In this document: piece by piece, positions 2,513-47,649 of the stretch
Numbering within the stretch: position 1 is the first letter of the stretch
Layout: each line of letters opens with the position of its first letter
NCBI RefSeq assembly: GCF_008065115.1
Contig: NZ_CP042913.1
Coordinates: forward strand, 5,715,257-5,779,256
DNA: 64,000 bases
Reading direction: 5' to 3'
Source of the DNA: Bythopirellula goksoeyrii
GTDB lineage: Bacteria; Planctomycetota; Planctomycetia; Pirellulales; Lacipirellulaceae
Program-made: the position numbers and the translations under genes
Notes under the pieces: model-generated
Told to the model about the DNA's origin: nothing
The model's database searches: none
The model's input: only the letters and a program-made list of their open reading frames with translations

Positions 2513-4231
2513 ATGTTCAAACCCAAGACAGTTCTTGTCACCACAGTTGCCATATGTCTCTGCGCGGTCGGCGCGGTCGGCGCGTTTGCCGCTGACCGGG
2601 GAATCGAGATTACGGAGAAGTACCTGAATATTCCCGTCAAACATGGCGCGGACAAGGTTCTTATCAGCCTTCAGGTGGATGACGAGAAAGTGCGCGAATT
2701 CACAGTAAGTCTGGCTTCGGGCGAGCCTGACTATTGGATCTACCTGGAAGTACAGGAGTTCATTGGGAAAACGGGATTTCTATGGGCCTGGACACTGCCC
2801 GAGAGTCACTCGAAGGGCTTCGAGGCAATCTACTGTGACGACACCTTTCCCGGTGAACAAAACCTCTATAAGGAAGAACTTCGTCCCCAGTTTCATTTCT
2901 CCTCAAAGCGAGGCTGGACTAACGATCCAAACGGGCTGATGTACTACGAGGGCGAGTATCACATGTTCTACCAGCACAATCCGTTTGGCTGGGAATGGGG
3001 AAACATGACGTGGGGACACGCCATCAGCACCGACCTTGTCCATTGGGTCGAACAGGGCGACAAGCTGCATGCGGATGCGGGTGGCACCATGTTCTCCGGG
3101 TCAGGCGTGGTTGACTGGAACAACACCACAGGATTCCAGACTGGCGACGAGCCCCCCATGATTCTCATCTACACGATCGCCGGCAATAACAGCCCCTGGT
3201 CTGAGGGTAAGCCGTTTACCCAGGGCCTTGCCTACAGCAATGACCGGGGACGGACCTGGACCAAGTATGCAGGCAACCCTGTTCAGGAACGCCTGCGCAG
3301 GGCCAATCGCGATCCAAAGGTCCAATGGCACGAAGAACTCGGGGAATGGGTCATCGTAATGTACCTGCGCGCTCCCGACGTCGGCTTCTTCACATCACCG
3401 AACCTGAAGCGGTGGGAGCTTCGCAGCATGATGCAGTCCAACCATGAGTGCCCTGAACTGGTTGAATTGGCCGTAGACGGTGACAAGAGCAATACGAAGT
3501 GGGTTCACTATGCTGCACATGGTGAATATTTTATTGGAGATTTCAATGGCACAGAATACACAAAAGAAACGGAAGCGGTCCGTTTCAACTATGGCAACAT
3601 GTTCTACGCCTCCCAGATGTTCAACGACATTCCCGACGAGGACGGCCGTGCCATTCAGATAGCCTGGGCGCGGGTCAACCTGCCGAACATGCCGTTCAAC
3701 CAGATGATGACCTTCCCGGTTTCGTTGTCGCTACGCACAACTGAAGATGGACTGCGGATGTTTGCCTATCCCGTCGAGGAAATTGAGAAGATCCATGGCA
3801 AGCGGCACCAGTGGAAGAATGAAGAGTTTGAACCTGGCGAGAATCCGCTGGAAGAGGTGAAGGGCAATCTCTTTGACATAGATGCTGAGATTGATTTAGG
3901 CGACGCGGACGAGATTGGATTCGAAATCAATGGTTTTCCCGTGACCTATATCGTTGAAGAGAATCTCCTTATCGGTGGTACAGGCAATGAGGGAGACGAG
4001 TTCAGTCAGGGTGAAACAAAGGCAGAACTCAAGCCAGTCGACGGCAAAATTAGCCTCCGCATTCTCGTCGACCGGCCTTCAGTGGAGATCTTTGCCAACG
4101 GAGGTCGTATCTACATGCCGATGCAAGCCGTCCGCGACCTCCATAACAAGTCGCTGAAGGTCTACGCCAAAGGCGGGGCCGCCCGCATCGAGAAATTGAC
4201 GGTTCACGAGGTGAAGTCCATCTGGCCATAA
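2513..4231 (+). CDS. secreted GH32 fructan hydrolase (levanase/inulinase type)
   Basis: This exported enzyme should cleave beta-fructosyl linkages in levan, inulin or sucrose. All GH32 signatures are present: nucleophile Asp138 in WTNDPNG, Asp267 in the RDP motif, and acid/base Glu312 in HECPEL. A signal peptide ends near AFAA (residues 24-27). Residues 30-120 form an additional domain ahead of the propeller, as seen in some levanases. A C-terminal beta-sandwich with the typical VDRPSVEIFANGG segment follows. The start has a strong GGAGG site 7-8 bp upstream. It is third in the co-directional glycosidase cluster. Confidence 0.93.
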   Translation: MFKPKTVLVTTVAICLCAVGAVGAFAADRGIEITEKYLNIPVKHGADKVLISLQVDDEKVREFTVSLASGEPDYWIYLEVQEFIGKTGFLWAWTLPESHSKGFEAIYCDDTFPGEQNLYKEELRPQFHFSSKRGWTNDPNGLMYYEGEYHMFYQHNPFGWEWGNMTWGHAISTDLVHWVEQGDKLHADAGGTMFSGSGVVDWNNTTGFQTGDEPPMILIYTIAGNNSPWSEGKPFTQGLAYSNDRGRTWTKYAGNPVQERLRRANRDPKVQWHEELGEWVIVMYLRAPDVGFFTSPNLKRWELRSMMQSNHECPELVELAVDGDKSNTKWVHYAAHGEYFIGDFNGTEYTKETEAVRFNYGNMFYASQMFNDIPDEDGRAIQIAWARVNLPNMPFNQMMTFPVSLSLRTTEDGLRMFAYPVEEIEKIHGKRHQWKNEEFEPGENPLEEVKGNLFDIDAEIDLGDADEIGFEINGFPVTYIVEENLLIGGTGNEGDEFSQGETKAELKPVDGKISLRILVDRPSVEIFANGGRIYMPMQAVRDLHNKSLKVYAKGGAARIEKLTVHEVKSIWP

Positions 4232-4319
4232 ACAAGCCAGGTCTCATGACCAAGACAGTCCATCTCAAAGTGAATCATCATCTTGACCTAAGTTGGAAGT
4301 CCTGAAGGAGGTTGAACGA

Positions 4320-6578
4320 ATGCAATATATTTCCTGTTGTGTGATAATTCTGATCTTGATGTTCTCCGCTGCTAATGTGGGGGCGGATGAAAACGCCGAA
4401 CTGCAAGAGAGATTCTCCAAGTGGATCAACGAGCGCGTGAAGCAGGAGAAGCAGCAGCACGGATTTCATCGCGGGGCACATGAGGAGAAGCTCGCCGAGA
4501 AGCGAGGCATGAACATCCCGGATGGGAAGTATACCACCGATGAGCTTACGTTCGACGACACGTTTCAGGCTCCTGATGATCCGCAGCAATGGCCGCTCTG
4601 GCGTGATTGGCTGCATCAGTGGCGCTTAGACAAGCGGAAGGCCCTGGACTATGACGACTCGTACTACAGCGATGAGGCTTTCGCCTGGATCCCGTCCAAC
4701 TATGTGTCAGGTTTACTTATGCTGTGGGACACGGCGCTATTGGACCCTGATGAAGGACGATACAAGGTTGAAGAGTTCATCGAGCACGGGAAGAAGGAAT
4801 TCGGCGGATTCGACAGCGTCGTGTTATGGCTTCCCTATCCGATCCTCGGAATTAGCAAGCGGAATCAAACCGATGTCTACCGGGACATGCCGGGCGGCCT
4901 GGAAGGTGTACGCGCCATAACCGAGGTCTTCCACAAGCATGGTATTGAGGTGTTCATGCCGTTCCTGCCGTGGGACAGCGGAACCCGCCAGGAAGACAAA
5001 ACGGATGCGGAAGTTTTGCTATCGACAACGGAAGCCATCAATGCGGACGGCATCTATCTTGACACGTGGTACGAATGCGCGCCGTTACGCCTTGAACTGG
5101 ACAAGATTCGACCCGGTCTGGCAATTGACACTGAACTGCCCGTACCGATCGAGTATGTTGCAGAGCACCAGATGTCCTGGGGGCAAATGAAACCGTGGAG
5201 AACCTGGTTGTTCGAGGACAGTCGCGCGCCGAGTGTGATCAAGAGCAAGTGGTTGGAACGCAGGCACGTGGTGCGCCCCACGAACCGATGGATTCTCGAG
5301 CGTACGGGCGAACTTCAGGCCTCGTGGATGAACGGTACGGGAACCTTGATATGGGAGAACCGGTTCGGATGCTGGAACGGATGGGATGAGCGGGCACGTT
5401 CCATGCTGCGGTCGATGGTCCCGATCCAGCGACGTTATGTAAACCTGTTTGCCGGAGAGGGGTGGACCCCACTGGTGGAGCACAGGGGAAAGGACGTGTT
5501 TGCCAGCCTGTGGGAAGGCGATGGTTTAAGACTATGGACGCTTGTCAACCGGGCGGAGGCAGCTTACAGCGGGAACCTGCTGGCCGTACCCCATGATGGG
5601 AATACCCGGTACTTCGATCTGATGAGGGGCGAGGAAGCCAACGTGAAAATCGAAAAAGGCGTTGCCTCTATTGACGGGGAGATTGACGCGAGGGGGCTCG
5701 GCGGATTCCTGGCGCTACCTGAGGATGCGGTCACAAGGGATCTCAACGAGTTCCTGGAGGGGCAGGCGAAGATTTTCGGGAGGAGAAACTGGGATCCGAC
5801 GTTCCCCGAAGGAAAGAAGCAGTTCCTCAATCCTGTTTCGCGAACACAGAAATACGATGTGGACAACAAGCCTGGGAACATGACTGTAATCCCCGCGACT
5901 GGGTCTCAACTCAAAAGAACTTTCAATGAAGGCGCGTTCCCGCAAGGTTTCCACGACACACTGTTGGAGGAGGTGAACGTGGAACTCTCTGAGTACGCGA
6001 TTGATCTGACTCCAGTTACGAACGCGGAGTACGAGGAGTTCTTGAACGCATCGGGCTACAAACCGCGTCATCAGGTCAACTTCCTGAAGCATTGGGTCGA
6101 CGGTAAGCCCCCGGCAGGTAAAGAGGATCATCCCGTGGTGTACGTCGATTTAACCGATGCTCGAGCGTATGCCCAGTGGGCGGGAAAGCGCCTGCCTACG
6201 GATGCGGAATGGCAATATGCGGCCGAGGGGCCGAAGGGCCTGAAGTATCCGTGGGGCGACACGATGGAATCGGACCGAGTCAACCCGGGTGACGCCACCA
6301 CAAGTGTACGCGCGTTTCCTAAAGGACGCTCGCCTTTTGGCTGCTACGATATGTGCGGCAATACCTGGGAATGGACGGAGAGCGGACAGACGGACGATGG
6401 GCGAACACGTTATTGCCTCATTCGAGGAGGCTCCTATTTTAATGCCGAAAATTCAAGCTGGTATGTAGCCGGCGGGCCGCAGCCCTGTAACCGAGCGACG
6501 AAGATGCTGTTGGTATGGCCTGGCTTGGACCGCTGCTCAACGATCGGATTCCGATGTGTTGTAGATTTGAAGGACTGA
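4320..6578 (+). CDS. secreted barrel-like glycosidase fused to FGE/sulfatase-modifying-factor domain
   Basis: The start at 4320 is chosen because AAGGAGG lies 7-8 bp before it and a clean signal peptide follows (MQYISCCVIILILMFSAANV). An upstream in-frame TTG at 4293 is less likely. Residues about 90-480 resemble a TIM barrel with a C-terminal beta domain of the alpha-galactosidase kind; the strand ADGIYLDTW offers a candidate catalytic Asp. Residues about 530-750 form an FGE/SUMF1-superfamily domain, shown by PVTNAEYEEFL, WAGKRLPTDAEWQYAAEG, PWGD, NTWEWTESG, IRGGSYF and IGFRCV. Many such domains are non-catalytic binding modules, and that may apply here. The fusion is unusual; neither activity is proven. 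Confidence 0.6.
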   Translation: MQYISCCVIILILMFSAANVGADENAELQERFSKWINERVKQEKQQHGFHRGAHEEKLAEKRGMNIPDGKYTTDELTFDDTFQAPDDPQQWPLWRDWLHQWRLDKRKALDYDDSYYSDEAFAWIPSNYVSGLLMLWDTALLDPDEGRYKVEEFIEHGKKEFGGFDSVVLWLPYPILGISKRNQTDVYRDMPGGLEGVRAITEVFHKHGIEVFMPFLPWDSGTRQEDKTDAEVLLSTTEAINADGIYLDTWYECAPLRLELDKIRPGLAIDTELPVPIEYVAEHQMSWGQMKPWRTWLFEDSRAPSVIKSKWLERRHVVRPTNRWILERTGELQASWMNGTGTLIWENRFGCWNGWDERARSMLRSMVPIQRRYVNLFAGEGWTPLVEHRGKDVFASLWEGDGLRLWTLVNRAEAAYSGNLLAVPHDGNTRYFDLMRGEEANVKIEKGVASIDGEIDARGLGGFLALPEDAVTRDLNEFLEGQAKIFGRRNWDPTFPEGKKQFLNPVSRTQKYDVDNKPGNMTVIPATGSQLKRTFNEGAFPQGFHDTLLEEVNVELSEYAIDLTPVTNAEYEEFLNASGYKPRHQVNFLKHWVDGKPPAGKEDHPVVYVDLTDARAYAQWAGKRLPTDAEWQYAAEGPKGLKYPWGDTMESDRVNPGDATTSVRAFPKGRSPFGCYDMCGNTWEWTESGQTDDGRTRYCLIRGGSYFNAENSSWYVAGGPQPCNRATKMLLVWPGLDRCSTIGFRCVVDLKD

Positions 6579-15621: not shown

Positions 15622-15760
15622 TTTCAGCGAACTCCTTGTGCATCTTGCTGTAAATGAAACCGAAACGAAGTTTCATGATGAAGTGGAAGTGCTGATTTCA
15701 ATCGCCACCGTCCTGTGGGGCTTCACGGGCGCCGCGCGTCGGGGTGAAACGCTTTAAAAT

Positions 15761-16365
15761 GGCATCGAGCTGCCAGACGAATGGCCGCCGAAGTACCCTG
15801 AGATAACGTGGGACCCGATACCGGTTCCCTATCTCGATGAGGTGCCTGCGATCATCTCAATCGATGTGGGATGTCAGCTCTTTGTCGATGATTTCCTCGT
15901 CGAGGAGTCCACCCTAAGTCGCAAGTTTCACCAGCCCGAGTACCACAAGGAACCGGTGATCACACCGGAGGAAGACACAGCAGGAATGTATGCTGCCCCC
16001 TTTAGTGGGGGCGCGTGCTACGACCCAGCCGACAAACTCGTCAAGATGTGCTATACGGTGATCTCGACAGCAAAGAGAGCCTCATCATTCGCGGAGTGAC
16101 GGGCGCGACAAGTGTTGCCTGGACGCCAGGTGTGGTCGATGCGATATTCGATCTGCTAGGTGATTTTAGTGACGATGGGATTTCGAGTCCCTACGACGGC
16201 GACGTCGATGGCGGATACTACTTTATTTGGCAACAGCAAAACGGCTCTATCGGTGGCACCTATTCCGCCGACGCGGACGACGATGGCGACGTCGACGGGG
16301 ATGACCTCGATATCTGGTCGGACCACTACAACAACACGCTCGACATTTTTGATATTGTTGTCTAA
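15761..16365 (+). pseudogene. decayed propeller glycosidase / dockerin-type remnant
   Basis: The frame from 15761 has no start and reads GIELPDEWPPKYPE...QLFVDDFLVEESTLSRKFHQPEYH, an N-terminal segment typical of planctomycete propeller hydrolases. It stops at 16099. A second frame (to 16365) continues with dockerin-like calcium loops (DADDDGDVDGDDLDIW). A TAA directly precedes 15761, and the catalytic body is missing. This is best read as the two ends of a secreted hydrolase gene left after deletion and frameshift, or two separate fragments. Confidence 0.6.
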
Positions 16366-17353: not shown

Positions 17354-17605
17354 ATGGCCGCCGCCGGGTGCCAAAAGCAACCGGTTCGCTGGCTTACGGT
17401 AGAGGACATTCGGAAACAACAACGCATGCGTCGTCAGGTCGTAGTCAATGCCATGCTCTCGGGAGAACTCCCCTATGAGCAGCGTGGTCGTATCCGCTAC
17501 GCCCGAGTATCCGACGTTGAGGCGTGGGAGAAATCGCGACTACATAGTCGCGTTCAAACTCCTGGAACCTTCTTGGTTCATCCGGACCTCGCCGAGTTCA
17601 CCTAA
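17354..17605 (+). CDS. excisionase-like helix-turn-helix DNA-binding protein
   Basis: The 83-residue product starts at 17354, just after a GGAGG site. It has the MerR/excisionase layout: WLTVEDIRKQQRMRRQVVVNAMLSG (helix-turn-helix) followed by a wing ending RIRYARVSDVEAWEKSRL. Such small proteins direct excision by integrases or repress mobile-element promoters. The position supports this, since a tRNA gene and two tyrosine recombinases follow within 200-3000 bp. It could also be an ordinary regulator. GC-rich dyads occupy the 120 bp between it and the tRNA. Confidence 0.6.
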   Translation: MAAAGCQKQPVRWLTVEDIRKQQRMRRQVVVNAMLSGELPYEQRGRIRYARVSDVEAWEKSRLHSRVQTPGTFLVHPDLAEFT

Positions 17606-17681
17606 GTCGGCCTCGCCGAGTCGGGCGGCCCAACCAGGCCGCTCGGCCCGGCTCTTTTCGAAGAGTGAACTAATGCGTCCG

Positions 17682-17709
17682 TTGCGAATATGCAGGACAG
17701 TGATAAAAT
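17682..17709 (+). promoter_or_regulatory. sigma70-type promoter of tRNA-Gly
   Basis: A TTGCGA -35 (17682-17687) is separated by 16 bp from an extended TGATAAAAT -10 (TAAAAT at 17704-17709). The predicted start point is about 7 bp before the tRNA. Confidence 0.55.
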
Positions 17710-17722
17710 AGAGCCTACCCAA

Positions 17723-17793
17723 GCGGGTGTAGCTCAATGGCAGAGCGTTTGGTTCCCAACCAAGATACGAGGGTTCGATTCCCTTCACCCGCT
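17723..17793 (+). tRNA. tRNA-Gly (anticodon CCC)
   Basis: The cloverleaf folds completely. The acceptor GCGGGTG pairs with CACCCGC, the anticodon stem TTTGG/CCAAG (one wobble) closes the loop TTCCCAA with CCC at 34-36, and the T arm is GAGGG-TTCGATT-CCCTT. CCA is not encoded. The stop codon of recombinase 1 lies only 11 bp beyond its 3' end, the classical place for an attachment site. No second copy of its 3' end was found in the window. Confidence 0.95.
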
Positions 17794-17803
17794 CTCTAAG
17801 AGA

Positions 17804-19066
17804 TTAAGTTTTGCCTTTGACCGGAAAGTCTGCATTGCCAGTACGGAGGGCATTACCAATCCATTCTATAACTTCGCGATTCTCGGGCGATATAGGTTTC
17901 ATGTAGACATCAGCCATGTCTGAACTTGCAGAATGCCCTAGCCAGCGTTTCACTTCGCTAATGGAGCATCCTGGCCGTGCCCCAAATTCGGTTGCCCCAA
18001 GATGTCGAAGCGTATAGAAGCCGCCCATTCCTTTGCACGCCTTTCCTTGTCGTTTGAGAAGCTTCGACCACCATTGCGTGACCGAGTCTGCGTGCTCATG
18101 CACAATTGCCATTCCTTTCACCGTGCGAAACAGCAATTCGCCTTTAGCTCGCTTCGTCTGCTTTATGTAATCTTGCATTACCTTCCAAACTAAGGGCGGT
18201 GTCTCGCCATATCGCTCAACACCCGTCTTACCTCGTCTTAGGTCGTAGCCCTTCTTATCGAACTGGCCAACTCGAATGGCGGCCAGGTCGCGTTGCCCAA
18301 ATCCGCAGCCAATCGCGGTCCAAACCATCGCTGTCTCGCGTGGACCACATTCTTCTAAAACGAGCTGTAGTTGTTTGAGAGTCGGAAGCTTTCGCTTCTT
18401 GGCTGGTTTGCCGTGAAGAACGTCTCGCGAACTCCAATTCCAACCTAGCACCTGCCCACCGTGCTCAGGCCGCCCCGCACGGTCGATAATCGCCTTCATA
18501 AATTGCAATCGCTTCGTGACCTGTGACGATGAATAACCGGCCTCAAATATCGCTCGATTGTACGCCTCCACGTCATCCAATCCGAGATGGTCCAGCATCA
18601 TCCGACCAACGGCTCCTTGCCCATGTCGAATGTTGAGGAATTCAAGTATTTCTTGTGCATAAACCTTTCGCTGGTCGTACACGGCTCTGGTAATACTTCC
18701 CTGACGACGGCCTTCTCCACTGCCCCGAACACGCGACTCTTCATAGCGGAGAAGTCCTGACGTAATGTGCAATAGGCTGCCTTCTAGAATCTCAGCCGTA
18801 ACCCCTTCGGCACTTGGTTTGGCCGTTATCGAATGAAGGTCCAGCTTCTTTCGCCGTTTTGGCTTGACGCCCGGCGTTTGACCGCAAAGATGGGCCGCGA
18901 CCCACTCGTGGTACGCCTTTTCCGCTTCTTGAAGACTGACCATTCCGAAGCGGTGTTTTCGCGGCGTCCCCGTCACTGGGTCACGAAAGGAGACGTGCCA
19001 ACCAATGTTGCGACTCTTGGTGTACTTGAGGGTCGGTACGCGTGGCTTGCGTTGGTTGCTGGGCAT
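17804..19066 (-). CDS. tyrosine recombinase/integrase 1
   Basis: This 420-residue site-specific recombinase has an N-terminal arm/core-binding part (residues 1-220) and a catalytic domain. The catalytic set is Arg259 (FGQRDLAAIR), Lys280 (RRGKTG), Arg354 in YTLRHLGATE, His378 in WLGHSA and nucleophile Tyr388 in ADVYMKP. The usual His of the HxxR box is Tyr351. The family joins and excises DNA at short core sites, often in tRNA 3' ends. Its 3' end abuts tRNA-Gly, and its paralogue lies directly upstream. Two 9-bp repeats sit 51-82 bp before the start, so shared regulation or arm-site binding is likely. Confidence 0.92.
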   Translation of the reverse strand: MPSNQRKPRVPTLKYTKSRNIGWHVSFRDPVTGTPRKHRFGMVSLQEAEKAYHEWVAAHLCGQTPGVKPKRRKKLDLHSITAKPSAEGVTAEILEGSLLHITSGLLRYEESRVRGSGEGRRQGSITRAVYDQRKVYAQEILEFLNIRHGQGAVGRMMLDHLGLDDVEAYNRAIFEAGYSSSQVTKRLQFMKAIIDRAGRPEHGGQVLGWNWSSRDVLHGKPAKKRKLPTLKQLQLVLEECGPRETAMVWTAIGCGFGQRDLAAIRVGQFDKKGYDLRRGKTGVERYGETPPLVWKVMQDYIKQTKRAKGELLFRTVKGMAIVHEHADSVTQWWSKLLKRQGKACKGMGGFYTLRHLGATEFGARPGCSISEVKRWLGHSASSDMADVYMKPISPENREVIEWIGNALRTGNADFPVKGKT

Positions 19067-19116
19067 GGCTAGGGGCCTTACAATACGTGCGTTGAAGCTG
19101 CCTTAGTTACACGAAT

Positions 19117-19148
19117 TGTAGTGCAAGGTACCCCGGAAATGTAGTGCA
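19117..19148 (-). promoter_or_regulatory. paired 9-bp repeats upstream of integrase 1
   Basis: Two copies of TGTAGTGCA begin at 19117 and 19140, a period of 23 bp, in similar flanks (AAT/AAA before each). The same pair with the same period lies before integrase 2. They could be operators or integrase arm-type sites. Confidence 0.6.
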
Positions 19149-19230
19149 GAGGCCACTGAACTACGGGAAATAGTGGTGTTCAGCATCGGCTTCCCAAGCT
19201 TTAGTTCAACCTTGATACGATTGAACGCAA

Positions 19231-20505
19231 TTACTTCTTCTTACGCTTGGCAGTTATAGCGAGGCTAGCCTTCCCGGACTTGAGTGCTTTGCCGACCCAT
19301 TCTACGACGGGTCGGTCCTCCGGGGACACAGGTTTCATGTAAACGTCTGCCACTTGAGAACTCGCCGAGTGCCCCAGCCATCTTTTCATCTCACCAATTG
19401 AACAACCAGGACGTGAACCGAATTCGGTTGCCCCTAGATGGCGAAGTGAGTAAAAACCGCCCATGCTCTTACAATCGACACCTAGTTTGGTTCGCAATCT
19501 CGTCCACCAGAGTACAACTGCATCGCAATTGCCATGCACAAGCGGCATTCCTTTCTCCGTAATAAACAGTAATTCCTGCTCGCTTCGCTTTGCTTCGCGA
19601 AGATAAGCTTGTATCGCTCGCCAGACCATTGGAGGCGTTTCGCCATATCGCTCGATACCAGTCTTACCACGCCGCAAATCGTAGCTCTTCTTGTCGAACT
19701 GATTCACTCGCACTTGGGCGAGGTCACGCTGCCCAAACCCACAGCCAATGGCCATCCACACCATGGCAGTTCGTTGTGCGTCGCAATGTTGCAGCACCAG
19801 TTTGAGTTGGGTAAGTGTGGGAAGTTTTCGTGACTCAGCGGGCTTCCCATGGCTCACATCGCGTGACCCCCAGTTCCAGCTGAGCAACTGGCCCCCATGC
19901 TCCGGACGACCGGCTCGGTCGATGATTGCTTTCAGGAGCCGCATTCGCTTATTGACTTGGGAAGAGGAGTAGTCGGCAGTCACTAGCAATCGGTTGTAGG
20001 CCTCCACGTCTTGCATGGTGAGTTCTGACAAATTCATTCGACCAACCGCTCCTTGGCCGTAGCGTGAATTCAGGAACTGTAGAAACTCCTGAGCAAATTG
20101 TTTCCTCGATTCGAACGTCTTGCGTGTAATGGTCCCTCTTCGGCGAACTTTATCATCAGCCCCAACGCGTGACTCTTCGTAGCTAAGAAATCCAGAAGTG
20201 ACATGTAGAAGGCTTCCGACTATGATGTCTGTGGCAATTCCGGTTGGCTTCGGTTTGGGAGTGGCTATCTGTTCGACCAGTTTTCTCCGGCTCCGCTTTG
20301 GTTTGGATGTAGGAGTCTCGCCACGCAAGTGGGCGGCTACCCATTCATGGTAAGCTGCCTCCGCCTCGGCTCGGCTCGTAGCTGCGAAACGATGTTTCCT
20401 GGGAGTGCCAGTTTTCGGGTCACGAAAGGAGACATGCCAACCGATATCCCGGTTTGCCGTGTATTTGAGCTGTGGAATCCGTTTCTTGCGGCTATTGTCA
20501 GGCAT
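19231..20505 (-). CDS. tyrosine recombinase/integrase 2 (paralogue of integrase 1)
   Basis: The start at 20505 (MPDNSRKKRIPQLKYT) matches the N-terminus of integrase 1; a longer frame to 20574 is less likely. The 424-residue protein aligns with its neighbour over its whole length, with most residues identical by eye. The catalytic boxes are all conserved: GFGQRDLAQVR, RRGKTG, YSLRHLGATE (again Tyr in place of His in HxxR), WLGHSA and ADVYMKP. Both copies therefore look active. The gene ends 164 bp upstream of integrase 1 and starts 132 bp from tRNA-Arg. The C-terminus is Lys-rich. It is a candidate enzyme for the flanking tRNA islands. Confidence 0.92.
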   Translation of the reverse strand: MPDNSRKKRIPQLKYTANRDIGWHVSFRDPKTGTPRKHRFAATSRAEAEAAYHEWVAAHLRGETPTSKPKRSRRKLVEQIATPKPKPTGIATDIIVGSLLHVTSGFLSYEESRVGADDKVRRRGTITRKTFESRKQFAQEFLQFLNSRYGQGAVGRMNLSELTMQDVEAYNRLLVTADYSSSQVNKRMRLLKAIIDRAGRPEHGGQLLSWNWGSRDVSHGKPAESRKLPTLTQLKLVLQHCDAQRTAMVWMAIGCGFGQRDLAQVRVNQFDKKSYDLRRGKTGIERYGETPPMVWRAIQAYLREAKRSEQELLFITEKGMPLVHGNCDAVVLWWTRLRTKLGVDCKSMGGFYSLRHLGATEFGSRPGCSIGEMKRWLGHSASSQVADVYMKPVSPEDRPVVEWVGKALKSGKASLAITAKRKKK

Positions 20506-20586
20506 CGATACAATAAGGCGTTCGGAGCTTAGAATTGAAGAATCTGGACGACGAGCCCTTACGGAGTACGTCAACGCAAGAGCAAT

Positions 20587-20618
20587 TGTAGTGCATGATT
20601 TTCAAGAAATGTAGTGCA
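20587..20618 (-). promoter_or_regulatory. paired 9-bp repeats upstream of integrase 2
   Basis: TGTAGTGCA begins at 20587 and again at 20610, the same 23-bp period as before integrase 1. The pair lies 82-113 bp upstream of the integrase 2 start and 20-51 bp before tRNA-Arg on the other strand, so it may affect both transcripts. Confidence 0.6.
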
Positions 20619-20637
20619 AGGCTCCAAAAAACCCTTA

Positions 20638-20711
20638 GTCCCCGTAGCTCAACTGGATAGAGTGTCGGCCTCCGAAGCCGAAGGTTGCTGGTTCGAATCC
20701 AGCCGGGGATA
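20638..20711 (+). tRNA. tRNA-Arg (anticodon CCG)
   Basis: The acceptor GTCCCCG pairs with CGGGGAT (terminal G-T), the D arm is GCTC/GAGT, the anticodon stem TCGGC/GCCGA closes CTCCGAA (CCG at 34-36), and the T arm is GCTGG-TTCGAAT-CCAGC. CCA is not encoded. Its 3' end is duplicated at 36901, making it the likely integration site of the adjacent island. Confidence 0.95.
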
Positions 20712-20714
20712 CTT
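20688..20714 (+). repeat. attL-like direct repeat, 3' end of tRNA-Arg
   Basis: The last 24 nt of the tRNA plus 3 nt downstream (27 bp) recur exactly at 36901-36927. This is the expected left junction of an element inserted in the tRNA gene. Confidence 0.75.
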
Positions 20715-20871
20715 AACATATGGTCGGCATACGTTCTTAACCACGCACTGGCTGGAGGGAGGACGTTGGCGGAGGTGGGAATGCCGCCGGGAACTCAAAT
20801 GTGAGGATTACCAGCATCTACCCGCACGTGGCGGTTGAGGAGGAGGCGCTGTGGAGTCTGATTGGGTGAAC

Positions 20872-36900: not shown

Positions 36901-36927
36901 CTGGTTCGAATCCAGCCGGGGATACTT
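36901..36927 (+). repeat. attR-like direct repeat of tRNA-Arg 3' end
   Basis: These 27 bp match 20688-20714 exactly and include the T arm and 3' acceptor strand of tRNA-Arg. The preceding 20 bp (CGTAGCCCGGATAG...) show only patchy similarity to the tRNA 5' part, so no second functional tRNA exists. The dctP stop codon lies 7 bp beyond. Confidence 0.75.
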
Positions 36928-45058: not shown

Positions 45059-46723
45059 ATGAGTCATCAGATTCCTGCGGCCCGCACAGTTACTCCACTC
45101 TCCAGCAAGCATGTCTACCTCATGGCCAACGGCGATCTGCGATTGTCGGCCAATCAGAATTGCTGGGCGGCTCAGCAGGCGATGGAAGAGGAAATTCGCC
45201 AGGCAGTTGAGGCACTCGGTTGGACGCTCATCCGCGCGCATCCCTACAAAGAAGACGAAAAACACGGATTCATCGGCTCTCAAAAAGAAGGGATGGATGT
45301 CTTCCGGCAACTCGACCCCAACGCCCCAATCATCGTGGCAGAAGCGGTCTGGCAGTACTCCCATCATATTCTCTCAGGATTGATTTCTCATCGCGGGAAG
45401 ATTCTCACTTTGGCCAATTGGTCAGGCACCTGGCCAGGGCTAGTTGGCATGTTGAACTTGAATGGATCCCTGACAAAGGCGGGCGCCGAATACAGCACAC
45501 TTTGGACAGAGGACTTTGGCGATGCCCAATTCAAGCAACAACTGGCAAGCTGGCTCTCTGGAGAGACGATTCGTCACCCCCTTGAGCATGTCATTCCCTT
45601 GGAAAAGGTTTCTGTCGATTCGCCTGAGAAAGAGCTTGGGGAGGCGCTGGCGAATCAACTGAAGAGCGAAAAGGCAATTATGGGGGTTTTCGACGAAGGT
45701 TGCATGGGAATGTTCAACGCGATTATCCCCGACCATTTGCTTAACCCCACCGGTGTCTTCAAGGAACGACTCAGCCAATCGGCCCTCTACTACGAAACAA
45801 CTCAAGTCTCCGACGAGCAGGCTCGTGATGTGCGGAAGTGGATGGAAGACCGGGGCATGACCTTCCAAACTGGGCCCAAGCATTCCGAAGATCTCACAGA
45901 CGAGCAAATCCTAAAGCAATGCAAGATGTATATCGCTGCGGTGCGAATCGCCGACGATTTCGGTTGTGACACGATCGGGATTCAGTACCAACAGGGACTG
46001 AAAGACTTGCTTCCCGCCAGCGACTTGGTTGAGGGAACGCTCAACAACGGCGATCGTCCCCCCGTCGTGAGTCGAGACGGTCAGCGAGTCCTCTATGAAG
46101 GGGAGCCAATCCCACACTTCAATGAGGTTGACGAATGTGCGGGGCTCGACGGACTGATGACCTACCGACTCCATAAGGCGATGGGGCAACCCCCTGAGAA
46201 CACACTGCATGACCTCCGCTGGGGGGACAGGGATCGTTCGGGAACGGTCGACGACTATGTGTGGGTCTTCGAGATCAGCGGAAGTGTGCCCCCGGCTCAT
46301 TTCAGTGGAGGCTGGAAGGGTGCGACCAGCGTTCGCCAGCCGGCCATGTATTTTCCCAATGGCGGAGGAACCATCAAAGGGATTTCCAAGCCAGGTGAGA
46401 TCGTCTGGTCGCGAATCTACGTCGAAGACAATCGACTGAAGATGGACCTGGGGCGTGCCGGTGTCGTAGAACTTCCCCTCGAAGAAACAGAGCGGCGTTG
46501 GCAAGAGACGACTCCCCAATGGCCCATCATGCATGCAGTCACCTACGGCGTCTCCCGTGATCAAATGATGGCACGCCACAAGAGCAACCATATCCAAGTT
46601 GCCTATGCGAACTCTGCCGAAGAGGCTGACAAAGCGATGCTCGCAAAGGCTGCTATGGCCCAGTCGCTCGGAATGGAAGTCGCCGTCTGTGGCACCCGTA
46701 AGGAAGGGGTATCATGGGGGTAG
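45059..46723 (+). CDS. L-fucose/L-arabinose isomerase-like protein
   Basis: The start at 45059 has AAGGA upstream; the longer open frame before it has no family character. The product has the fucose-isomerase fold: an N-terminal part ([55 protein letters not shown]) and a C-terminal domain with [15 protein letters not shown] and [17 protein letters not shown], the latter supplying likely metal ligands Glu and Asp. It is a predicted ketol isomerase of deoxy- or pentose sugars in the cytoplasm. It stands alone between the ectoine locus and a membrane gene. Confidence 0.7.
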
Positions 46724-46800
46724 CTGTCAGGATGAATGTGGCAATGAGATCATTAAGAAATTGGTACAAGTAGTCTCACTTCCGAACAGAATGGTCGACC

Positions 46801-47649
46801 ATGATTGAGACACTCCGAAAAGCCTTTCAGGGATGGTCTCGCGACGATGGATCGCTTCTAGCTGCGGCGGTGTCCTATTACTTGGCGCTAGCATTCTTCC
46901 CCTTGCTGATTGTGCTCTTGTCTGGTTTGGGATTCTTTTTCCAATGGACCGCGTCAGGTCAGGACGCCGAAGCCCAGTTGCTCACGATCATCGAAGAGCA
47001 GTTGTCACCCAGTTTGAGTTCTCAGGTAAAAACCGTCTTCTCACAAGTTCGCGACAAGGCCTCGATTGGGGGGCCGATTGGATTGTTAGTGCTATTGGCA
47101 ACTGCGATCATCGTCTTTGCCCAAATCGAGACCGCATTCGATCGGATATGGAACGTCCCCATCGAGAAACGGAGCATCTGGCAGTCGATAACACATGTGG
47201 TCCTCAAAAGAGCCCGAGCTTTTATTATGTTGACGGCATTGGGGGTCGTTGTGCTGGCGGTCTTTGCAAGCGGAATGATTATGACCACCATGTTGAGCAT
47301 GGCCGGTGACTCCGAGGCAAGTGAATGGCTTCGCTGGGCTACACAACTCGGCGTGTCAGTCGCATTAAACTTTGCTGTCTTTAGTTGCATCTATCGTTTC
47401 GTTCCAAAGTCAGAAGTCTCCTGGAAAGCAGCCGCCGCGGGAGGTTTGTGGGCGGCGCTGATATGGGAACTGGGCCGCATGGTGCTTTCTGCTTTCGTGG
47501 TTGGCAAGAAGTATAGTGCCTATGGCGTCCTCGGAGCCTTCCTGGCGATCATGCTCTGGGCCTACTATGCGATGTGCGTCCTCTTTTTTGGTGCTGAAGT
47601 CACCCAAGCTGTGTCTGAGGATCACGGTTCTGTGGATTCAGAATCTTGA
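46801..47649 (+). CDS. YihY/BrkB-family inner membrane protein
   Basis: The 282-residue protein has about six membrane helices and the YihY pattern SRDDGSLLAAAVSYYLALAFFPLLIVLLSGLG, ETAFDRIWNVP and GGLWAALIWELGRMVLSAFV with YGVLGAFLAIMLWAYY near the end. The family was once called ribonuclease BN by mistake; its transport or envelope role is unknown. It is convergent with lysA, only 13 bp between stop codons. Confidence 0.9.
   Translation: MIETLRKAFQGWSRDDGSLLAAAVSYYLALAFFPLLIVLLSGLGFFFQWTASGQDAEAQLLTIIEEQLSPSLSSQVKTVFSQVRDKASIGGPIGLLVLLATAIIVFAQIETAFDRIWNVPIEKRSIWQSITHVVLKRARAFIMLTALGVVVLAVFASGMIMTTMLSMAGDSEASEWLRWATQLGVSVALNFAVFSCIYRFVPKSEVSWKAAAAGGLWAALIWELGRMVLSAFVVGKKYSAYGVLGAFLAIMLWAYYAMCVLFFGAEVTQAVSEDHGSVDSES

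Follow-up and report, generated by a model that had tools for sequence, protein, structure and literature searches.

We analyzed a 64,000-nucleotide stretch of the genome of Bythopirellula goksoeyrii (contig NZ_CP042913.1; the window, G000:C1:5715257–5779256, where G000 is the source genome, other G numbers are genomes of relatives and L numbers are loci), in which two tyrosine integrase genes, int1 and int2, lie between a tRNA-Gly gene and a tRNA-Arg gene. Very probably, this segment is the integrase end, resembling an attR attachment site, of a 73.2-kb island inserted by the mechanism proposed below into the anticodon loop of tRNA-Arg(CCG). The island spans G000:C1:5662746–5735968, from a displaced 5′ half of the tRNA gene to the end of tRNA-Arg. 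Its right-hand part, delimited by a repeat of tRNA-Arg nucleotides (nt) 1–41, the junction and a conserved far-end module, fills positions 1–20678 (no strand assigned), and its left end lies beyond the window. A sequence-only reading of this DNA had described two full-length paralogous tyrosine recombinases, head to tail between the two tRNA genes, and so they are: both frames are uninterrupted and on the minus strand (Int1, 17804–19066; Int2, 19231–20505, starting at ATG 20505 or at a listed TTG at 20574), and the proteins are 65% identical.

The two ends of the island can be read in the tRNA-Arg gene itself. Nucleotides 1–41 recur, 100% identical and on the same strand, at G000:C1:5662746–5662786, 73 kb upstream of the intact gene, and in the relative G002 nt 3–41 are repeated 101 kb upstream. 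In the anticodon arm, both fragments join sequence that carries, about 125 bp inward, a conserved module consisting of one arm site followed by GGTCGA/GGACGA repeats. This far-end module also closes the islands of G472 and G052, appears in a variant form in G024 and stands beside tRNA-Arg 5′ halves in G014 and G020. The G472 island has a 39-bp repeat at both ends, running from the anticodon loop to the 5′ end of tRNA-Met, 8.2 kb apart; for the element in G730 only repeats of 13–15 bp were seen, and G001 has arms and a partial module, with no integrase found by homology search or motif scan. Within the window, tRNA-Arg(CCG) at 20638–20712 (+; ARAGORN) is composed of an island-borne 5′ half (20638–20678), with the core loop CTCCGAA at 20670–20676, and a native 3′ half.

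The leaders of these genes, compared alone without the tRNA, suggest which half came with the island (an earlier 80% match over 90 bp had included 41 bp of tRNA). Upstream of the displaced half, the 50-bp leader resembles those of tRNA-Arg in 6 of 12 relatives (G019, G016, G011, G013, G017 and G001), with 0–3 of 300 shuffles as good; the 12 were drawn from 30 tRNA-Arg loci among the matches listed. The 50 bp before the present tRNA-Arg are unlike the leaders of those six; their likeness is to the leaders found at the islands of G002 and G020 (0 of 300 shuffles each). Because of this comparison, the native leader seems to have remained with the displaced half, and the island appears to supply both nt 1–41 and the leader that the gene now has.

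tRNA-Arg(CCG) is a hot spot, with 5′-half fragments (nt 1–41 or nearly) in at least 7 of the 43 family genomes that the tRNA-Arg search covered, all fragment counts being lower bounds. Not all of these need stem from the family formed by Int1, Int2 and their close relatives (the Int family): the integrase near the fragment in G013 has the first catalytic Arg of box I, and neither arms nor module were found in G013 or G011. At G013:C96:39315–54362, a tRNA-Arg has both a 5′-half and a 3′-half fragment nearby and the box-I-Arg integrase at 46614–47624: a single tRNA with insertions to either side.

Upstream of each integrase lie two direct repeats of the TGTAGTGCA type, 23 bp apart, which the 9-mer count and their conservation as a pair at other integrase loci mark as arm-type sites (19117–19125 and 19140–19148 for Int1; 20587–20595 and 20610–20618 for Int2; all +). 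The exact 9-mer occurs four times in the window against 0.29 expected, a count that 0 of 100 shuffles reached. A strict pattern for the arm pair matches eight integrase loci and, apart from these, only the far end of the G024 island; the pair can also be made out at L009 and, more closely spaced, at L043. The pattern TGCACTACANTTC has two further matches in the genome, at G000:C1:5927095 and 6274591. Outward of the arms stands a complete tRNA at Int2 and G002 (tRNA-Arg(CCG)), G472 (tRNA-Met(CAT)) and G052 (tRNA-Arg(ACG)), a tRNA truncated at its anticodon arm at L009 and L040 (both Gly) and at G024 (anticodon CAT), and a short tRNA-Gly arm at Int1. No tRNA lies outward of the arm pair at L042. 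Homologues do lie at other tRNA genes, a check that the sequence-only reading had suggested: 8 of the 10 Int-family loci examined have a tRNA or an anticodon-arm fragment on the N-terminal side of the integrase (the exceptions are L042 and L043), as do both remnants (tRNA-Gly(TCC) in G095 and tRNA-Ala(TGC) in G490). Each predicted attachment core is on the N-terminal side of its own integrase. L043 (G490:C1:3292503–3293717) interrupts an apparent phage portal gene, named from its reading frame, beside an imperfect inverted repeat.

A small gene on the far side of tRNA-Gly completes the set. As had been noticed, this open reading frame (ORF; 17354–17605, +) resembles a helix-turn-helix (HTH) protein, with a weak match to HTH_17 (E 0.001; 19.7 bits against a cut-off of 27). 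It has one homologue in each of the eight genomes with the Int family (8/8). The homologue abuts the integrase gene in G472, lies more than 40 kb from it in G730 and G490 and, in G095, is on a different contig from the integrase remnant. The integrase and HTH genes are the only genes common to all five islands (5/5; 73, 101, 8, 43 and 54 kb; E 1e-6, 60 aa), in keeping with the earlier description of a site-specific recombination end with an excisionase-like gene. Given this co-occurrence, the HTH gene probably encodes the excisionase. A second HTH_17/AlpA-like gene, at the far end of the island (G000:C1:5662971–5663393), is a competing candidate.

The Int family is rare and scattered. At E 1e-20 it occurs in 5 of 396 genomes of the order, a count that includes the source genome and one remnant, and 10 of 392 genomes of the phylum match at E 1e-8, six of them only through distant members of a wider clade. 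It is absent from the 13 same-genus relatives searched, Int1 has no match in the phage and plasmid collections and one IMG/VR contig carries the family. This patchy distribution fits a mobile element. The tree places Int2 with L013 and L037 (tRNA-Arg; support 98/99) and L040 with L009 (tRNA-Gly; 93/98); Int1 sits near both groups at an unresolved fork.

Int1, judging from its surroundings, is the integrase of a second integrase–attachment module, with its own arm pair and a tRNA-Gly-type core, an anticodon arm at 19183–19204 (+) with the spacer TTCCCAA at 19191–19197. The anticodon arm GC-TTCCCAA-GCTTTAG of a second tRNA-Gly(CCC), at G000:1519954, matches this core over 16 bp (19189–19204); that gene is 77% identical to the tRNA-Gly beside Int1. 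The other side of the core, GCATCGGC, is present in the tRNA-Gly(CCC) genes of G014, G016, G020 and G030. The core looks like a recombination product in an anticodon loop, its old 3′ side reduced to 7 nt. The tandem integrases had been thought to act either as a pair or as two stacked elements; the stacked arrangement is nearer the mark than the pair, since the two integrases share neither arm pair nor core.

The tRNA-Gly(CCC) by the int1 stop codon (17723–17794, +; ARAGORN) is complete, and its own halves pair with each other. L040 repeats the order of the Int1 module, with tRNA-Gly 4 bp from the stop codon and a core that joins a different tRNA-Gly 3′ half. By analogy with tRNA-dependent lysogeny (PMC10865867), the complete tRNA-Gly beside Int1 and in L040 is probably a spare tRNA carried as cargo. 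In its IMG/VR contig, the L040 module (3622–6336) is flanked by a complete tRNA-Gly and, on the other side, by a fragment of a tRNA-Gly next to another integrase gene, of canonical appearance. The shared order of tRNA-Gly, integrase, arms and core, together with an 18-bp core repeat 1.39 kb apart in L040, might instead describe a compact 1.4-kb single-gene mobile element, made up of Int1, tRNA-Gly and core and inserted next to int2. We gave this reading up once the tRNA-Gly halves proved to match, and keep it as an unlikely rival. In both loci, the tRNA-Gly is whole, its halves match and it is not a chimera that includes the displaced half, the L040 fragment looks like another tRNA-Gly, no far-end module lies inside the unit and its 5′-half partner was not found.

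The integrases themselves depart from the canonical pattern. Neither Int1 nor Int2 matches PF00589 above the curated cut-off, whereas both match the PHROG family phrog_1 'integrase' (3.3e-26 and 5e-20), and all six wider-clade members in alignment A5 match PF00589, at E up to 0.1. Searches of solved structures by sequence gave no match with the family profile and, for Int1, two chance-level rows only. An AlphaFold model of Int1 from 29 sequences (mean predicted local distance difference test score, pLDDT, 79.5; a model from four sequences was poor, at 49.9) has the lambda-Int/XerA fold with a three-strand/helix N-terminal domain. It aligns with XerA at Z 16.8 (251 residues; root-mean-square deviation (rmsd) 17.3 across domains) and with the catalytic core of lambda Int at Z 13.7 (rmsd 2.7 over 145 residues). 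With this predicted fold and a nucleophilic C-terminal Tyr, Int1 and Int2 fit the tyrosine recombinase superfamily.

The sequence-only reading had credited both enzymes with intact catalytic sets, which a profile–profile alignment against canonical integrases of the same genome contradicts. Int1 has Gly257 at the box-I Arg position and Tyr351 at the first His, and likewise Int2; Lys280, Arg354, His378 and Tyr388 of Int1 are kept. The same holds across a clade of 41 proteins (nine of the Int family, six wider-clade members from same-phylum genomes and 26 from IMG/VR contigs; L122 gave no ORF and is not among them, and alignment A6 omits both L118 and L122). Box I has Gly in 41/41 and the first His is Tyr in 40/41; retention is 41/41 for Lys, 39/41 for the second Arg, 38/41 for the GH His and 39/41 for Tyr. 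All 41 have an Arg two residues before the Lys (Lys-2). The complete R-K-H-R-H pentad is not present at canonical positions in the clade, which does not exclude it from the superfamily because functional members with pentad exceptions are described in PMC8138268. By comparison, 85 of 86 PF00589-type integrases from 17 genomes have the box-I Arg. Of the 21 source-genome loci with PF00589 matches, this sample used 13 at first and 5 added later (it does not include L008, L146 or L004, the last being a duplicate of L003), and it also took in 40 lower-scoring matches hand-picked for near-full coverage and 28 top loci chosen automatically. The exception, L248 (G408:C45:138429–138920), is an integrase of another type with an Arg at Lys-2, perhaps an independent case. 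From this residue pattern, we propose that the downstream Arg could stand in for the box-I Arg in catalysis.

Losing both the box-I Arg and the first His might alternatively mean that the clade is catalytically dead, consisting of integrase-fold DNA-binding regulators whose islands are moved by other recombinases, and the Int1 model does align with the integrase-fold repressors YopR (Z 11.1) and SroF (Z 12.5). We think this improbable given how many of the clade retain the remaining Lys, Arg, His and Tyr and given that the genes lie directly at the attachment cores. Inside the 73-kb island there is no PF00589 integrase of the source genome. The only other integrase-like piece in the G472 island is a 98-aa ORF with DUF6538 (L054, 15334–15630), a domain that we take to be linked to integrases; it is possibly the N-terminal piece of another integrase. 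The CTnDOT integrase lacks the same Arg and works (PMC8138268).

Least of all do we favor an element in tRNA-Gly itself, with Int1 at the classic tRNA 3′ end, paired or stacked with Int2, and the element running right, as first suggested: the int1 stop codon does lie close to the tRNA-Gly 3′ end (9 bp away, not 11 bp) and L040 has the same neighborhood, but this reading is very improbable because a BLAST search of 144 kb found no second copy of that 3′ end on either side, only chance-level matches of 10–17 bp, the Int1 arms and tRNA-type core are on the N-terminal side, the halves of the intact tRNA-Gly pair with each other and a tRNA-Arg 5′-half end exists far to the left. The tRNA-Gly is probably not an attachment site, and the element runs left to the tRNA-Arg fragment 73 kb away. 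What stands of the sequence-only reading is that the genes are real and form a recombination end; its catalytic set and its direction do not, and its tRNA-Gly site probably does not.

Several observations weigh against our own interpretation. G052 has just a 15-bp core repeat and no clear displaced half, G024 appears to split its own tRNA without rebuilding it and the present tRNA-Arg leader weakly resembles those of G023 and G005, 2 of the 12 relatives (2 and 1 of 300 shuffles). The other end of the Int1 element was not found in the 144 kb examined. A consensus scan of 20480–20740 recognized no promoter before tRNA-Arg, and the idea that the arms double as an outward tRNA promoter was dropped. 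The excisionase assignment is not unique because the island has another HTH_17 gene close to its far end. For the proposed relocation of the Arg, scored only where the Lys column holds Lys (nine rows without it were set aside), Arg stands at Lys-2 in 42/42 sequences without box-I Arg and 26/76 with it (Fisher p 5e-14), an association that is not independent and a p value that overstates independence because 41 of the 42 belong to one clade. The Lys-2 Arg is common, then, also in enzymes that keep the box-I Arg, and the contrast is weaker than a first sample had hinted (1 of 13 canonical enzymes) because the wider sample gives 26/76. Finally, the active-site change could mean a dead enzyme, with integrase-fold repressors among the structural matches.

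In the mechanism that we propose, the N-terminal domain of Int2 would bind the paired arm sites and its other domains the core in the anticodon arm, whose natural inverted repeat flanks a 7-nt spacer. Int2 would join core with core, bridging to the far-end arm site and the GGTCGA/GGACGA repeats, where the HTH protein would probably act as excisionase. The attachment site of the mobile form (attP) would carry the tRNA 5′ half and its leader; integration would then rebuild tRNA-Arg from the island 5′ half and the native 3′ half and leave the native 5′ half and leader stranded at the other end of the island. The Int1 module would be a second one from the same family, with a tRNA-Gly-type core and a complete same-isotype tRNA in place of the tRNA half. 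In Int1, R278, two residues before the catalytic Lys, may do the work of the missing box-I Arg.

The layout of lambda integrase and attP served for comparison. The window modules are like it in the three-strand/helix N-terminal domain followed by core-binding and catalytic domains, in arm-type sites on both sides of the core and in a small helper gene; they differ in the substituted catalytic Arg and His and in a core within a tRNA anticodon arm. In the CTnDOT integrase, R285 precedes K287 at the same Lys-2 position. Its subgroup likewise lacks the first Arg in box I and has instead an Arg further downstream (PMC8138268), but it uses other target sites, whereas the clade described here is uniform in its box-I Gly and Lys-2 Arg and has Tyr in place of the first His. 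The IntDes subgroup of Desulfovibrio, likened here by its description in the same source, has a 'shifted' first Arg and a Tyr for the first His (PMC8138268).

Integration into anticodon loops is common, and of the islands listed by Islander 159 have a 5′ fragment and 3760 a 3′ fragment (PMC4383910). The 5′-fragment islands share with ours an anticodon-centered crossover, an intact tRNA gene (tDNA) at one end, a same-orientation 5′ fragment upstream at the other and an integrase inside (PMC4383910). The locus has the features that Islander uses: an intact tDNA, a same-orientation upstream 5′ fragment, an integrase inside and a length of 73.2 kb, within the range of 2–200 kb. It differs from those islands in integrases unmatched by PF00589, in two integrase–attachment modules in one island and in a family that also keeps the tRNA in other ways. 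According to one review, bacterial tRNAs rebuilt and then expressed from another promoter are seldom met (PMC8371274). The tRNA-dependent lysogeny of actinobacteriophages resembles the Int1 module and L040 in its short core and in a complete same-isotype tRNA next to the integrase gene, and clearly resembles L040 in that the tRNA is not rebuilt at the junction (PMC10865867); it involves other bacteria and another integrase family, and the window module is nested in another island. The signs of tRNA dependence fit in L040; of the tRNA disrupted in the window only 7 nt of the 3′ side are left, and the genome has a second tRNA-Gly(CCC) elsewhere.

Two further repeats were seen around the segment. 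Beyond tRNA-Arg, on the side away from the island, 16.2 kb are bounded by an exact 27-bp repeat of the gene's 3′ end (20688–20714 and 36901–36927); this segment resembles a conventional 3′-end island, with no PF00589 match of the genome inside. Positions 15743–16058 resemble (67–77%) three stretches 26–46 kb leftward, beyond the window.

Relocation of the Arg, 5′-half islands and spare-tRNA integration each have published precedent. As far as the open-licence literature searched shows, what is new is the Int family, the architecture of its attP and its partner gene, the presence in one island of two modules whose tRNA cores differ, and the absence of the box-I Arg as a pattern throughout the clade. 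A scan that relies on PF00589 alone misses both integrases of the window.

Overall, the analysis delimits an island family precisely, by both tRNA halves, arms, far-end module and partner gene, and shows that such islands can split a tRNA gene yet leave the cell a working copy, a single integrase family having differing ways of sparing its host. The role of the first catalytic Arg becomes directly testable, because 41 natural sequences lack it and the candidate replacement is invariant. A broader picture, which we offer tentatively, is that in a clade of tyrosine recombinases from this phylum and its phages the first catalytic Arg has moved from box I to the strand beside the catalytic Lys, and that one branch of the clade moves islands sharing only an integrase, an excisionase and attP, with more than one way of coping with the split tRNA. 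These ways would be a 5′ half (G000, G002 and G472), a spare tRNA (the Int1 module and L040) and, in G052, possibly a 3′ half. Because its two modules have different tRNA cores (Gly and Arg), the window island could even switch or choose its target tRNA.

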